Source of the DNA: an uncultured Spartobacteria bacterium
Lineage (GTDB): Bacteria; Verrucomicrobiota; Verrucomicrobiia; Chthoniobacterales; Chthoniobacteraceae
NCBI GenBank assembly: GCA_903929475.1
Contig: CAIYUV010000202.1
Span: 1-41,639, forward strand
DNA: 41,639 nucleotides
Direction of reading: 5' to 3'
Numbering within the stretch: the first letter of the stretch is position 1; each line of letters opens with the position of its first letter. Made by a program: the position numbers and the translations under genes. This document shows, piece by piece, positions 1-8,543 of the stretch. The notes under the pieces are model-generated. The model was not told where the DNA came from, searched no databases, and was given only the letters and a program-made list of their open reading frames with translations.

Positions 1-724
1 CGTTCTTCTTAGGCGGCGCAACTTCCTCAATCTCCATGCACGAAAGCCCTCGAAGTTCGAGCACAAGCCTTTCGCCAACAACCCCCATTTCCTGTCGTGC
101 TAATCTCGGTTCCATATCGCGCAGTCCACGTGCTGTTGTAATGCCTTTAGTTGCCAATCGCGTAGTGAGTGAACGACCTATGCCCCACACTTTCTCTACG
201 GGTAAAAGCTCCAACCACTCGTCAGCATTCTCGGGTGTGATCCAAAGCACGCCGCCAGTAGCTTTCTTCGCCAGCTTATTCGCCGCCTTCGCAAGCACCT
301 TCGAGGAACCTATGCCGATGCTGATTGGAATACCGGTCCACTGCTTCACACGCTCTCGCACTTTCCGTGCATGTGCTTTGGCATCGGTCATGCCGGCGAA
401 ATCGAGAAAGCATTCATCAATAGAATAAACTTCTGAGTGCGGTGCGGCATCCCCGAGTATTCGCATCACGCGCCCGCTCATGTCGCCGTAGAGCGCGTAG
501 TTCGAGCTGAACACTTGCACGCCATGCGTCCGCATCATTGCACGCACTTTGAACTCCGCTTCACCCATGCCGATGCCCAGCGCCTTTGCTTCCTCGCTCC
601 GCGCAATCACGCAGCCATCATTGTTGGATAGCACGACCACCGGCTTGCCGTTCAGGCGCGGCTGAAAAACGCGCTCGCACGAAGCGTAGAAATTATTGCA
701 ATCCGCGAGGGCAAAGAGGGCCAC
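1..724 (-). CDS. umuC: DNA polymerase V catalytic subunit UmuC (3' end outside window)
   Basis: Y-family translesion polymerase; with UmuD' it copies damaged DNA at the price of mutations. About 241 N-terminal residues are present and the rest runs off the left edge. Visible motifs are the N-terminal LADCNNFYASCE (first catalytic Asp and sugar-contact region), SNNDGCVIARS, and the palm motif YSIDECFLDF with the catalytic Asp-Glu pair, followed by the helix-hairpin-helix-like VEKVWGIGRSL. The start is GTG at 724, preceded on the minus strand by a good AGGAGG that overlaps the end of umuD, so the two genes are a coupled operon. It lies on the inferred integrated element, as mobile umuDC/rumAB-like pairs often do. 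Confidence 0.93.
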   Translation of the reverse strand, partial: MALFALADCNNFYASCERVFQPRLNGKPVVVLSNNDGCVIARSEEAKALGIGMGEAEFKVRAMMRTHGVQVFSSNYALYGDMSGRVMRILGDAAPHSEVYSIDECFLDFAGMTDAKAHARKVRERVKQWTGIPISIGIGSSKVLAKAANKLAKKATGGVLWITPENADEWLELLPVEKVWGIGRSLTTRLATKGITTARGLRDMEPRLARQEMGVVGERLVLELRGLSCMEIEEVAPPKKN

Positions 725-734
725 GGTGCACCTC

Positions 735-1166
735 CTATTTCAACGCGTGGATGACATTCGTCACCACTCCCCATACATCAAGGCTGGCCCATTCGCCCAC
801 CTCGACATCCTTGAACTTCGGATTTTCCGAGCACAGGAAACACCGCTCCCCACGCACGACGATTCGTTTCACAAAAAATGCACCGTCCAGCACGGCTACC
901 ACGATTTTCCCCGTCACCGGCTCTATGGCTCGATCCACCACGATCAGGTCTCCGTTGTGAATGCCAGCCCCGATCATCGAGTCACCCTCCACGCGCATGA
1001 GAAACGTCGCCGCTGGATGCTTCACGAGCAGTTCATCCAGCTTGAGCGTCCCTTCCAAATAGTCTTCCGCTGGGGAGGGGAAGCCACCCGGCACGCGTGC
1101 CTGCACCAGCGGCAGTCGGTGCAGTGGCAATGTCTCGACCGCAAGTCCGATTAGCGTGCAACTCAT
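735..1166 (-). CDS. umuD: UmuD-like S24 (LexA-family) self-cleaving protein
   Basis: Partner of the UmuC polymerase; RecA-stimulated self-cleavage turns it into the active UmuD' form. The 143-residue protein matches UmuD length (E. coli 139) and carries PGGFPSPAEDYLEG at the cleavage region, Ser63 in GDSMI and Lys100 in FFVKRI, the Ser-Lys dyad. The scissile bond would be Gly27-Gly28; E. coli UmuD has Cys-Gly and LexA Ala-Gly. There is no DNA-binding domain, so it is not LexA. The ATG at 1166 is chosen because it gives the usual UmuD length; a TTG at 1175 adds three residues. It ends 10 bases before the umuC start. I found no TGTTC-N4-GAACA LexA box upstream. Confidence 0.92.
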   Translation of the reverse strand: MSCTLIGLAVETLPLHRLPLVQARVPGGFPSPAEDYLEGTLKLDELLVKHPAATFLMRVEGDSMIGAGIHNGDLIVVDRAIEPVTGKIVVAVLDGAFFVKRIVVRGERCFLCSENPKFKDVEVGEWASLDVWGVVTNVIHALK

Positions 1167-1490
1167 GGCAGCCAATTAAACTCGCACCGTCTCCGCGTCT
1201 AGTCCTCTTGCAAAATAGACGTAATACTCACTACTCCACTCTGCTCAATGCACCGGCAACCCCGACAAACCAGATGGCCTCCGGCACTACGGGCAATTCA
1301 CTGAATGATGCCGTTGTGGGATGCGCTGTGACGGGCTTTTTCCGGCTTGCCCGCTGATACTTCAACGAATACCCGAAGGACATGCGAACCACTCCATCGC
1401 GCCCCGCTCTGCTTCTCTCCGGTATGAACTTCCCAGCCCACGATATTCCAACAGAATACGGAGCAACACATCGCTGAATCATTTAGCATC
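1167..1490. other. 324-bp stretch without a supportable gene
   Basis: This lies between the divergent umuD and the orphan gene at 1491. Short open frames exist on the minus strand (for example 1231-1482), but none has a recognisable domain, good start context or ribosome binding site. It should hold the umuDC promoter near its left end; the AT-rich stretch around 1205-1235 is the likeliest place, but I cannot point to a clear -35/-10 pair. Confidence 0.4.
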
Positions 1491-2060
1491 ATGAAAAGGC
1501 ACAAACGCCAACCTGACACTCGCGCCACACTCATCACTGCCCACGACAGAGAACGCCTGTTTCAAAGCAACCGTCCATTTAGAACATGGCTCTCACCGAA
1601 CATCATGGATGACAGCGAGACACCCCTGTATGGCGCAATTCGAAAAGGCAAATTAGTTCTTTGCTGGGCTAAAGTAAGTCCGGCGCACAACATGCAGAAT
1701 CAAAGTTGCAGCTTCACGATTGCAGGTGCCGATGCGGACAACATGTTGATTCGTGCCGTAGGTGCTGGAAAGCCTCACTTTAATTATACTGCGGGTTATC
1801 ATATCGATCACGTAAACAATAACGCACCTATCAAAATAACCAGCTCCTGCGCGGGAACGATCATGGTGAAACTTGCAAATCACTCCAAGTCTGCGGCTAT
1901 CGCGATTCGTTTCATACCCGAGGCAGGAAAGCCGTCCGAGCCCGTTATTATTCCCGTAGGGGCTGAGGTTACTCTGACGCGAAAAGCTTGCGGTGTGCTA
2001 ATTGAGCCACAGAAAGGCGTAATAGACATTTACGCTTTAAATGTTGCGTTCACTCCGTAG
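1491..2060 (+). CDS. hypothetical protein, orphan cargo of the island
   Basis: A 189-residue protein I do not recognise. It has no signal peptide or membrane segment. The first 35 residues are basic and Arg/His-rich; the rest alternates short hydrophobic and polar stretches as in a beta-rich fold, with three cysteines spread through it (CSFTIAG, SSCAGT, KACGV). The start could also be the ATG at 1605 (MDDSETPLYG), which would drop the basic N-terminus. Base composition looks more AT-rich than the chromosome beyond the att copy. It is the last gene before the inferred right attachment site, where element-specific cargo often sits. No function is proposed. Confidence 0.5.
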   Translation: MKRHKRQPDTRATLITAHDRERLFQSNRPFRTWLSPNIMDDSETPLYGAIRKGKLVLCWAKVSPAHNMQNQSCSFTIAGADADNMLIRAVGAGKPHFNYTAGYHIDHVNNNAPIKITSSCAGTIMVKLANHSKSAAIAIRFIPEAGKPSEPVIIPVGAEVTLTRKACGVLIEPQKGVIDIYALNVAFTP

Positions 2061-2098
2061 GCGATCACTTCCTAGACCAGCTATAGGTCAACGTGTAA

Positions 2099-2120
2099 AA
2101 AACGGCAACAAAACGGCAAC
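2099..2120 (+). repeat. two tandem 11-bp direct repeats beside the att copy
   Basis: AAAACGGCAAC occurs twice head to tail (2099-2109 and 2110-2120), followed by GG. It sits 25 bp before the tRNA half-copy, inside the element. Short direct repeats next to an attachment core are typical of arm-type sites for tyrosine integrases or of excisionase sites. That role is inferred from position only. Confidence 0.6.
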
Positions 2121-2145
2121 GGAGAGTGGTCTTCTCTGATAAACA

Positions 2146-2195
2146 ACGGTCTCCGAAGCCGAAGGTTGTGGGTTCGACCCCCGCCGGCTGCACCA
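2146..2195 (+). other. attachment-site copy: 3' half of a tRNA-Arg(CCG)
   Basis: The sequence folds as the 3' half of a tRNA. The anticodon loop is CTCCGAA (2151-2157, anticodon CCG at 2153-2155). A five-base variable loop follows, then a perfect T-arm (GTGGG-TTCGACC-CCCGC, 2168-2184), the acceptor strand CGGCTGC, discriminator A and encoded CCA ending at 2195. The 5' anticodon strand pairs badly (A:A and T:G) and no GCAGCCG acceptor strand or D-arm lies upstream, so this is not a working tRNA. The clean 3' half with a foreign 5' half is the signature of an integration event whose crossover lay at the anticodon arm. Confidence 0.85.
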
Positions 2196-2237
2196 TAAAA
2201 ATCATAAAGGTGGCCCGAGGTTTGCTAAACTACAGCT

Positions 2238-2705
2238 ATGCGAAAGCTGAAACCACATGGCTACACACTTATTGAGGTGATGATCGTCGTCGCGATCATT
2301 GCTGATTTGGCAGTGATGACCATCCCGGCGTTTGTGCGAGCACGTGCTGCGGAGCAGAATACACAATTTGTGAACGATCTCCGTGTTATCAGCGGCGCTT
2401 TCGAACAATACGCCGCTGAGCGATATCACTGGCCTGCAGAAGCCGCTGCGGGCACCATTCCGACGGGAATGGATTTATTCCTTGGAAACCGTGTCCCATT
2501 TAGTGCGACGCCTGTTGGTGGCGTTTGGGATTGGGATTACAATGTAGGCGGCGTCAAAGCCGCCCTCACCGTGAATCTTACCGGCGCTGTCGATGACCCC
2601 GTGCGTATGCAGGCAGTGGATGCGATGTTCGATGATGGTGTGCTCACCACCGGTGCATTTCGGCAGGCATCGGGCAATAAATACATCTACGTTCTCGAGT
2701 GGTAG
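2238..2705 (+). CDS. type IV pilin-like / pseudopilin protein
   Basis: A 155-residue protein with a short basic leader and a class III prepilin site: Gly8 followed by YTLIEVMIVVAII, giving Gly at -1, an aromatic residue at +1 and Glu at +5 of the mature form. The hydrophobic N-terminal helix covers roughly residues 9-28. The C-terminal part is short and contains a GGVWDWDYN stretch, as in small verrucomicrobial pilin-like proteins. It should be processed by a prepilin peptidase and enter a pilus or secretion fibre. It stands alone, is the first gene of native chromosome after the att scar, and converges on ald. Confidence 0.85.
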   Translation: MRKLKPHGYTLIEVMIVVAIIADLAVMTIPAFVRARAAEQNTQFVNDLRVISGAFEQYAAERYHWPAEAAAGTIPTGMDLFLGNRVPFSATPVGGVWDWDYNVGGVKAALTVNLTGAVDDPVRMQAVDAMFDDGVLTTGAFRQASGNKYIYVLEW

Positions 2706-2716
2706 TCAAAGCGTGA

Positions 2717-3820
2717 TTACTTCCCAAACGGGGTGTGCAATTGCAGTCCGTGCGCCTCGGATACCCCGCGGCAGGTTAATTGTCCGTTGTGTATATTGAC
2801 TCCGCTGAGTAGATTTTTGTCTCTGGCAAAAGCCTCGGGCACTCCGTGGTCGGCGATCAATTCGATGAATCGGTAAGTCACATTAGCCAGCGCCTGTGTC
2901 GCTGTGCGCGCGTAGGCGGCGGGCATGTTGGTCACACAATAGTGCGTCACTTCCTCCTCCACAAAGATCGGATCGTGATGGGTCGTTGCGCGCGACGTTT
3001 CCGCGCAGCCACCTTGATCGATCGCGATGTCAACAAACACGCTGCCCGGCTTCATCATCCGTATCATCTCGCGACTGATCAACTTCGGCGCGCGTGCGCC
3101 CGGCACCAGCACCGCCCCGATCAGCAAATCCACCTCAGGCAGCATTTCCAAGATATGAGCGGGGTTCGAATACAGTGTGTGCGCCGTGTGAAGTGAGATG
3201 TCGAGATACCGCATCCTCTCCACGTCCACTTCGAGAATCGTCACATCCGCGCCCAGCCCCTGCGCCATCCGTGCTGCATTCACGCCGGCTGTGCCTCCAC
3301 CGATGACGACTACTTTTCCGGGCAAAACTCCCGGCACTCCGCCCAGCAAAACGCCGCAACCTCCCGCGTGTTTTTGCAGAAAGTAACCGCCGACCAGCAC
3401 GCTCATCCGCCCTGCGATTTCGCTCATTGGTTCGAGGAGCGGCAGCCGCCGGTTCACCTCCAACGTTTCGTAGGCGATGCCGGTCACTCTTGCCGCCATC
3501 AGCGCCTCGGTGAGCGGCTTGCTTGCCGCGAGGTGGAGGTAGGTGAAAAGAATCTGCCCGGCGCGCAGCAACGGCCACTCGCTTTCCAGCGGCTCCTTCA
3601 CTTTTACGATCATGTCCGCCCGTTCGAAGACCTCTTCGTGTTTTGTCACCAGTTCCGCCCCGGCCTGTCTGTATTGGTCGTCCGCAAATCCGCTGCCCGC
3701 GCCCGCGCCTGCCTCGATGATGACCGTGTGTCCGCGCCGGATGAGTTGATACGCTGCACTCGGCAGCAGCGCGACCCTGTTTTCCTGCGCTTTGATTTCC
3801 TTGGGAACTCCGATTTTCAT
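2717..3820 (-). CDS. ald: alanine dehydrogenase
   Basis: Catalyses reversible NAD-dependent oxidative deamination of L-alanine to pyruvate and ammonia. The 367-residue length fits the family. It begins [10 protein letters not shown] and has Arg15 for substrate binding, catalytic Lys75 in VKVKEP and His96 in YLHLAA. The Rossmann glycine motif is [13 protein letters not shown], and the conserved [14 protein letters not shown] and [16 protein letters not shown] follow. The ATG at 3820 is chosen because the family starts at MKIG; the reading frame is open further to a TTG at 3856 that overlaps the end of yqgE. Together with yqgE it probably forms one transcription unit read leftward. Confidence 0.96.
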
Positions 3821-3852
3821 GGATGGATATGAGAGCGAAAAGTCCGCGCCGT

Positions 3853-4491
3853 TCAATTCATGCTCGGATCATCCGGCGCTTCGGCGACCAGTTTGAACCA
3901 CGGGCCGAAGGTGCTAGTGAGTTCGCGCCAGATGCGCGGGGCGCGTTCGGTTTCCAGTAACTCTGCTTGATCGGCCTTGCGCACGAGCCATGAGCGTTGT
4001 GCCAGCTCCGCTTCGAGCTGGCCGCTGCTCCAGCCGGAGTAGCCGATGAAACCTCTCACGGTGTGATGCTGTGCGGAGGCGAGTTGCTCGGCCTCTTCGA
4101 GTGGGATGTGGTGGCGGCATTCGAGCCTTCGCGATTGTGGATGCCAGCGGAACGCGACTAGCATCAGTTGATCCGTCTGCACCGGTCCGCCCGCGAGCAC
4201 GGGGACGCGTGCGAGATGGCCGAGTTCGCTCTCCTTTAGTAAATCACCAACGACTTTTCCCGTGGGGCGGTTCACGATGAGGCCGAAGCCGCCTGCCGTG
4301 GTGCTGTGATCGGCGAGCATGATGACGCTCTTGTGGAAGTTCGGGTCGAGCAACGACGGATGGGCGATGAGGATGCTGCCCGCAAGATGAAGCGAAGTGG
4401 ATGCCGGTTCGCGCACACGCCGAGGATAACTGTGACGCGGTAACTGTCGAGTCACGAGTCTGCGATACTCGCCTCTCGACACCTGCCTCAC
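3853..4491 (-). CDS. yqgE: YqgE/AlgH family protein (UPF0301)
   Basis: A conserved protein of unclear biochemical role; AlgH of Pseudomonas was named as an alginate regulator. The core from about residue 35 reads LAGSILIAHPSLLDPNF, followed by GGFGLIVNRPTG, VLAGGPVQTDQL and RGFIGYSGWSSGQLEAEL, all typical of the family. Homologous sequence starts only around residue 33, and the frame has several GTG codons upstream but no ATG, so the true start may lie downstream of 4491 and shorten the protein to the usual 180-190 residues. It ends 32 bp before the ald start and is divergent from the gene at 4516. Confidence 0.88.
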   Translation of the reverse strand: MRQVSRGEYRRLVTRQLPRHSYPRRVREPASTSLHLAGSILIAHPSLLDPNFHKSVIMLADHSTTAGGFGLIVNRPTGKVVGDLLKESELGHLARVPVLAGGPVQTDQLMLVAFRWHPQSRRLECRHHIPLEEAEQLASAQHHTVRGFIGYSGWSSGQLEAELAQRSWLVRKADQAELLETERAPRIWRELTSTFGPWFKLVAEAPDDPSMN

Positions 4492-8027: not shown

Positions 8028-8543
8028 CTACTTCACCCGCGTCAGCGTGGTGCCGCAGGAGGCTTTCTGCTTTCCTCCCTCCCAGCTCGCGCAGGTGCCG
8101 GTTATTTTTTGCACGCCGGATTTCTTCGAGCCGGAGAGCGTGAGGGTCAGGCTGTGCATGTGCATGTCGCGGCGGGGATTCAAGTTTGTGCCGCCGTCAA
8201 AATCGAACACGAGTTCGGTCGCGGTGCTCTTGCGGGTGTTGAGCTTCGTGCGGGGCTGGTTGCCGAGCATGCAGTAGTGCGTCATCAGCAGGTCGCCCTT
8301 GTCCATGTGATAGACGGAGATCATTTCCATCTTCGTGCCGGGGAAAATGGTTTCCTCCACCGCGCTGCCACCGGCGGTGACGCGGAAGATGGAATGTGAT
8401 TTCGGCATTCCTTTTTGCATGGCAGGCCCGCGCCATTCGCCAGCGAGCTTTTTGATCGAAGCGAAGGCGTCAGCGGTAGTGGTTTCCGCGTGTGCGGAGA
8501 TGACGGTGGTTGTGGCGAGGATGAGTGCGAAGAGAGTTTTCAT
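8028..8543 (-). CDS. secreted lipocalin-like (DUF1579-type) hypothetical protein
   Basis: A 171-residue protein with a clear signal peptide (MKTLFALILATTTVISAHA). The mature part begins with an amphipathic stretch, then KLAGEWRGPAM and alternating strands including VEETIFPGTKMEMISVYHMD and GDLLMTHYCMLGNQP. This layout resembles the single-domain beta-barrels grouped with DUF1579 and THAP4-like heme/lipid binders. No ligand-binding residue can be assigned with confidence. It lies downstream of the esterase gene on the same strand (48-bp gap) and converges on the DUF1549/DUF1553 gene. Confidence 0.72.
   Translation of the reverse strand: MKTLFALILATTTVISAHAETTTADAFASIKKLAGEWRGPAMQKGMPKSHSIFRVTAGGSAVEETIFPGTKMEMISVYHMDKGDLLMTHYCMLGNQPRTKLNTRKSTATELVFDFDGGTNLNPRRDMHMHSLTLTLSGSKKSGVQKITGTCASWEGGKQKASCGTTLTRVK

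Follow-up and report, generated by a model that had tools for sequence, protein, structure and literature searches.

The left end of the DNA analysed here (the window: 41,639 nucleotides, contig C202 of the 4.50-Mb genome G000 of an uncultured Spartobacteria bacterium, which comprises 295 contigs) forms, with a probability of about 95%, the right-hand terminus of a genomic island: window positions 1-2147 would have arrived by tyrosine-integrase insertion into a tRNA-Arg(CCG) gene, within its 3' half. The hallmark of this junction is a tRNA scar at 2148-2195 (GGTCTCCGAAGCC...GGCTGCACCA). Read directly from the sequence, the scar retains a portion of the anticodon stem, its CCG-bearing loop, the T-arm, the 3' acceptor strand and CCA; D-arm and 5' acceptor strand are missing. 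No tRNA is predicted in the window by ARAGORN, and all Rfam matches at the scar fall below threshold, at chance level. The initial annotation had recognized a T-arm, acceptor strand and CCA joined without a D-arm, which direct reading and the ARAGORN result bear out. Two details need correction. The shared tRNA block had been taken to start at 2146, but identity to the intact tRNA begins at 2148. The 5' anticodon strand had been called non-pairing, which is true of position 27 only; 4/5 positions still pair, with C28 opposite G42 and positions 29-31 (GGT) within the shared block. The features around the junction are compiled in Table 1.

Table 1. Features of the island end, the tRNA scar and the chromosomal flank in the window.
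Feature	Position	Strand	Remarks
umuC, putative island cargo	1..721	-	3' end lost at contig end; Pfam IMS 2.5e-37; NCBIfam UmuC
umuD, putative island cargo	735..1175	-	Pfam Peptidase_S24 2.3e-27; NCBIfam UmuD above cut-off
ORF of 189 aa, inside island	1491..2060	+	no family match
Tandem GGCAAC repeats, 11 bp apart, probable integrase arm-type sites	2104..2120	+	only such pair in window
Probable attR core, displaced 3' part of tRNA-Arg(CCG)	2148..2193	+	46 nt identical to intact gene on C291
CCA end of pre-integration chromosomal tRNA	2193..2195	+	absent from rebuilt tRNA on C291, present at empty site of G007
Chromosomal right flank	2196..3856	.	directly after intact tRNA in G007
Pilin-like gene, right flank	2238-2705	+	
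Alanine dehydrogenase gene, right flank	2717-3856	-	

An intact tRNA-Arg(CCG) sharing this block, accompanied by an integrase gene, had been predicted to lie to the left. Both were found in this genome, on a different contig. The tRNA occupies C291:422-496(-), and in a one-genome search window 2148-2193 (46 nt) is identical to C291:422-467(-) at 46/46 positions (E 3.7e-17). Scar and C291 are the only full copies of the block in the genome; the next-best matches (82% and 75%) are other tRNA-Arg genes, which are paralogous. The integrase ORF begins with MATDGNEPAMTNPFQLKHYND... just 3' of the intact tRNA, ~120 nt from its core, and remains open to the contig end, where it is cut off after 101 codons; a tyrosine integrase gene is present between tRNA and fragment, represented by these first 101 codons. 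The predicted position to the left is supported by synteny (see below), with tRNA and scar residing on separate contigs.

A full-length near-copy of the integrase (378 aa) on contig C187 of the same genome matches Pfam Phage_integrase (2.3e-11) and the PHROG integrase family (1.5e-36). C187 was considered as the direct continuation of C291 and rejected: the two integrase regions agree at only 96% of DNA positions over their common 380 bp, which makes C187 a second copy or strain variant. This second integrase region (L063, 1-3274) may belong either to a tandem element or to a variant strain, yet a single intact tRNA-Arg(CCG) and a single scar were found in the genome.

Related integrases adjoin tRNA-Thr(CGT) in three elements: L122 in a Chthoniobacter MAG and L126 from IMG/VR (62% protein identity each), and a third on contig C108 of G003 (65% DNA identity). 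In all three, the integrase start codon is positioned about 130 bp past the tRNA 3' end, similar to C291, and at the matching place before the gene tandem GCCAAC repeats occur 11 bp apart, in contrast to GGCAAC here; their target is tRNA-Thr instead of tRNA-Arg(CCG). L122 and L126 carry terminase-like or type I modification ORFs, unlike the island here. The location of the L122 and L126 integrases immediately 3' of a tRNA, with tandem repeats of this kind, agrees with tRNA-directed insertion of the island. These relatives are also a reason to consider that the same integration event inserted a prophage or phage satellite and not a non-viral integrative element, a view that is judged the less probable one but deserves some weight: the L122 integrase is found on a contig with terminase-like ORFs, L126 belongs to a viral contig collection, and the tyrosine integrases encoded by Akkermansia phages share 26-29% identity. 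No gene for a capsid, terminase or tail protein is seen in window 1-2147 or C291:1-421, although these assembled ends (2.1 kb and 0.4 kb) are too little to decide. The island insertion into tRNA-Arg(CCG) is common to both views.

For this insertion, the congener G007 provides the uninterrupted attB of an island-free relative. Its contig C28 contains a single intact tRNA-Arg(CCG), followed by CCATAAAA and then by the pilin-like gene of the window. When C291 up to the core and the window from 2148 are joined, the composite aligns to the G007 locus through the tRNA without a break, indicating that a single insertion separates C291 from C202, its two flanks. Synteny with G007 covers 10.66 kb of C291 (84%) and about 5.8 kb right of the scar (74-93%, reaching about 8 kb in the window). 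A comparison with an island-free relative had been proposed, with the expectation that the sequence from 2196 onward would directly follow a full tRNA, and this is the arrangement in G007, with synteny on both sides. The scar, a 3' fragment, has the orientation of the tRNA and lies downstream of it, with orientation and order set by G007 synteny across two contigs. No contig in the bin bridges C291 to C202, and neither end has an exact 141-bp overlap neighbour in the assembly; with attL and attR on different contigs, their linkage thus rests on synteny.

A second occupied site was found in the congener G005, where the intact tRNA (contig C54, CAMBOD010000054) and the scar (C85) delimit island ends as in G000, at the matching tRNA. 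On the integrase side, the first 308 bp are 97.7% identical to C291, and at the other end C85 and the window agree at 98.3% over the 59 bp left of the scar, whereas the chromosomal flanks reach 76-91%. umuDC is located at the scar end in G005, too (window 1-1258 corresponds to C85 2567-3824, 91.5%), and the 189-aa ORF of the window is absent at the matching place. The G005 integrase is truncated by about codon 66 and the CCA of the scar is lost (it reads CTA), which gives the island the appearance of a remnant; the element may be dead. In the flank on C85 (L065, 4530-4559), no alanine dehydrogenase gene separates the pilin-like from the YqgE-like gene; the gene is present in the window and in G007.

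Two readings of the scar that dispense with an insertion were weighed. In a fragmented assembly, in which umuC and integrase genes are cut by the ends of several contigs, a junction could originate from an assembly or binning chimera; this is very improbable here, as the independent bin G005 has the same scar and the same 59-bp arm at 98% identity, and as contigs are joined via exact 141-bp overlaps, so that a repeat of 46 bp would not suffice to join them falsely. Had it arisen with no mobile element involved, as an old tRNA pseudogene or a partial duplication, a partial tRNA without D-arm would look alike when taken alone; this origin is contradicted by the uninterrupted G007 locus and is hardly credible given the integrase after the intact copy and the same two junctions in G005.

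Integrase-mediated insertion most probably produced both copies in the following manner: The attP of the circular element would bear its own tRNA 3' part, which lacked CCA and extended from the anticodon stem to the discriminator. By recombining with the tRNA of the chromosome, it would restore a complete tRNA gene next to the integrase (attL, C291), and the original 3' part with its CCA would be displaced to the far end (attR, window 2148-2195). The 3' end of the rebuilt tRNA in G000 and G005 reads CAC-TTACTG or CAC-TAACTG, without CCA, and that at the G007 empty site and the window scar reads CAC-CATAAAA. The absence of CCA from the rebuilt tRNA and its retention at scar and empty site indicate that the element supplied a 3' part without CCA, whereas the chromosomal CCA was displaced together with the old 3' part. 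Since the two copies are identical from anticodon-stem position 29 onward, strand exchange presumably took place within the anticodon stem-loop or 3' of it. The rebuilt tRNA would, according to established knowledge, depend on a CCA-adding enzyme. Excision and integration are predicted to be catalysed by the integrase of the island itself.

The tandem GGCAAC repeats inside the island edge are probably arm sites of this integrase. By shuffling, 0.135 such pairs are expected per window. Comparable tandem motifs occur ahead of the integrase on C291, C187 and G005 C54, and G005 C85 has them ahead of its scar, as in the window; the repeats are thus found beside both att sites, attL (C291) and attR (window). 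None were found in 20 kb around the G007 empty site. A tRNA-Lys scar on contig C3 of the present genome has a GCCAAC pair, too.

The island is seen from its two ends, which together expose at least 421 + 2147 bp. The DNA-damage mutagenesis pair umuDC left of the scar had been proposed to be mobile, a proposal strengthened by its absence from the empty site, its presence at the same end in G005 and its multiple copies elsewhere; umuDC is therefore likely to be mobile island cargo. Further copies exist in this genome (C29, C124 and fragments) and in G007 (C107, C71), and 7/9 congeners have no close DNA match. A tRNA-Gln lies near at least one of these copies, that on C29 (syntenic with G007 C107), so umuDC copies move or multiply, although mobility is not proven for each. 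The degree of umuDC identity was dropped as proof of transfer: it amounts to 90-94% between genomes, compared to 74-93% for nearby chromosomal genes. Beside its integrase, C187, not proven to be part of the island, encodes a LOTUS-domain protein and a weakly clamp-like protein, a relative of which on C61 matches DNA_pol3_beta. Searching the literature for umuDC-bearing islands of Verrucomicrobia returned nothing directly on the subject.

Several other tRNA-linked elements were observed in the same genome: (i) contig C201 (L073, 27-8410) contains a small island in full, about 8.3 kb long, with an intact tRNA-Leu(CAG) at 8328-8410(-), an identical 29-bp scar at 27-55 and an integrase at 154-1338; CCA is found on the scar and not on the intact tRNA, as at tRNA-Arg(CCG); (ii) the ends of C88 (L076, 1-7571) overlap by exactly 141 bp, which probably makes it a circle of 7,430 bp; it carries an integrase gene (2602-3759, minus strand) plus a tRNA 3' part, with 76 bp identical to the tRNA-Phe(GAA) 3' region on C239, and may be an excised element; (iii) on C63 (L077, 68-15307), about 15 kb separate an intact tRNA-Gln(CTG) from a tRNA-Gln 3' fragment, and the two sides are joined in G007 C107, an apparent empty site; (iv) on C167 (L078, 11188-12543), tRNA-Lys(TTT) is followed by an integrase, and an identical 51-nt 3' fragment of this tRNA is found on C3 (L117, 8356-8406), where attL-like sequence follows it, hinting at a tandem insertion.

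Among known systems, the closest counterpart is the Islander class of tRNA-targeted islands with an anticodon-centred attP ("site A") and a 3' fragment; in that collection, site A is used in 2083/3919 islands and 3' fragments are found in 3760 (PMC4383910). In both cases, the element rebuilds an intact tRNA, a tyrosine integrase gene adjoins it, and the displaced 3' fragment lies at the far end in the same orientation (PMC4383910). No mechanistic difference from this class was found for the island here, which is known from its ends only; its rebuilt tRNA has no encoded CCA, which the scar keeps. Intact tRNA and scar are a clean example of a way of insertion that is common and well understood.

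The island edge is hereby defined exactly, umuDC in this genome is marked as accessory DNA at this locus, and a single integration can strip the encoded CCA from a tRNA gene. The mechanism of tRNA-targeted islands is known mainly from phyla other than Verrucomicrobia, to which the present locus adds a well-documented case that includes both an empty site and another one that is occupied. More speculatively, and at rather long odds, there may be a family of Verrucomicrobia elements with one integrase lineage, tandem G(G/C)CAAC arm sites, several tRNA targets (Arg, Lys, Thr), and its own umuDC translesion polymerase and sliding-clamp-like protein. If so, each island of such a family would bring along a self-contained mutagenic repair kit.
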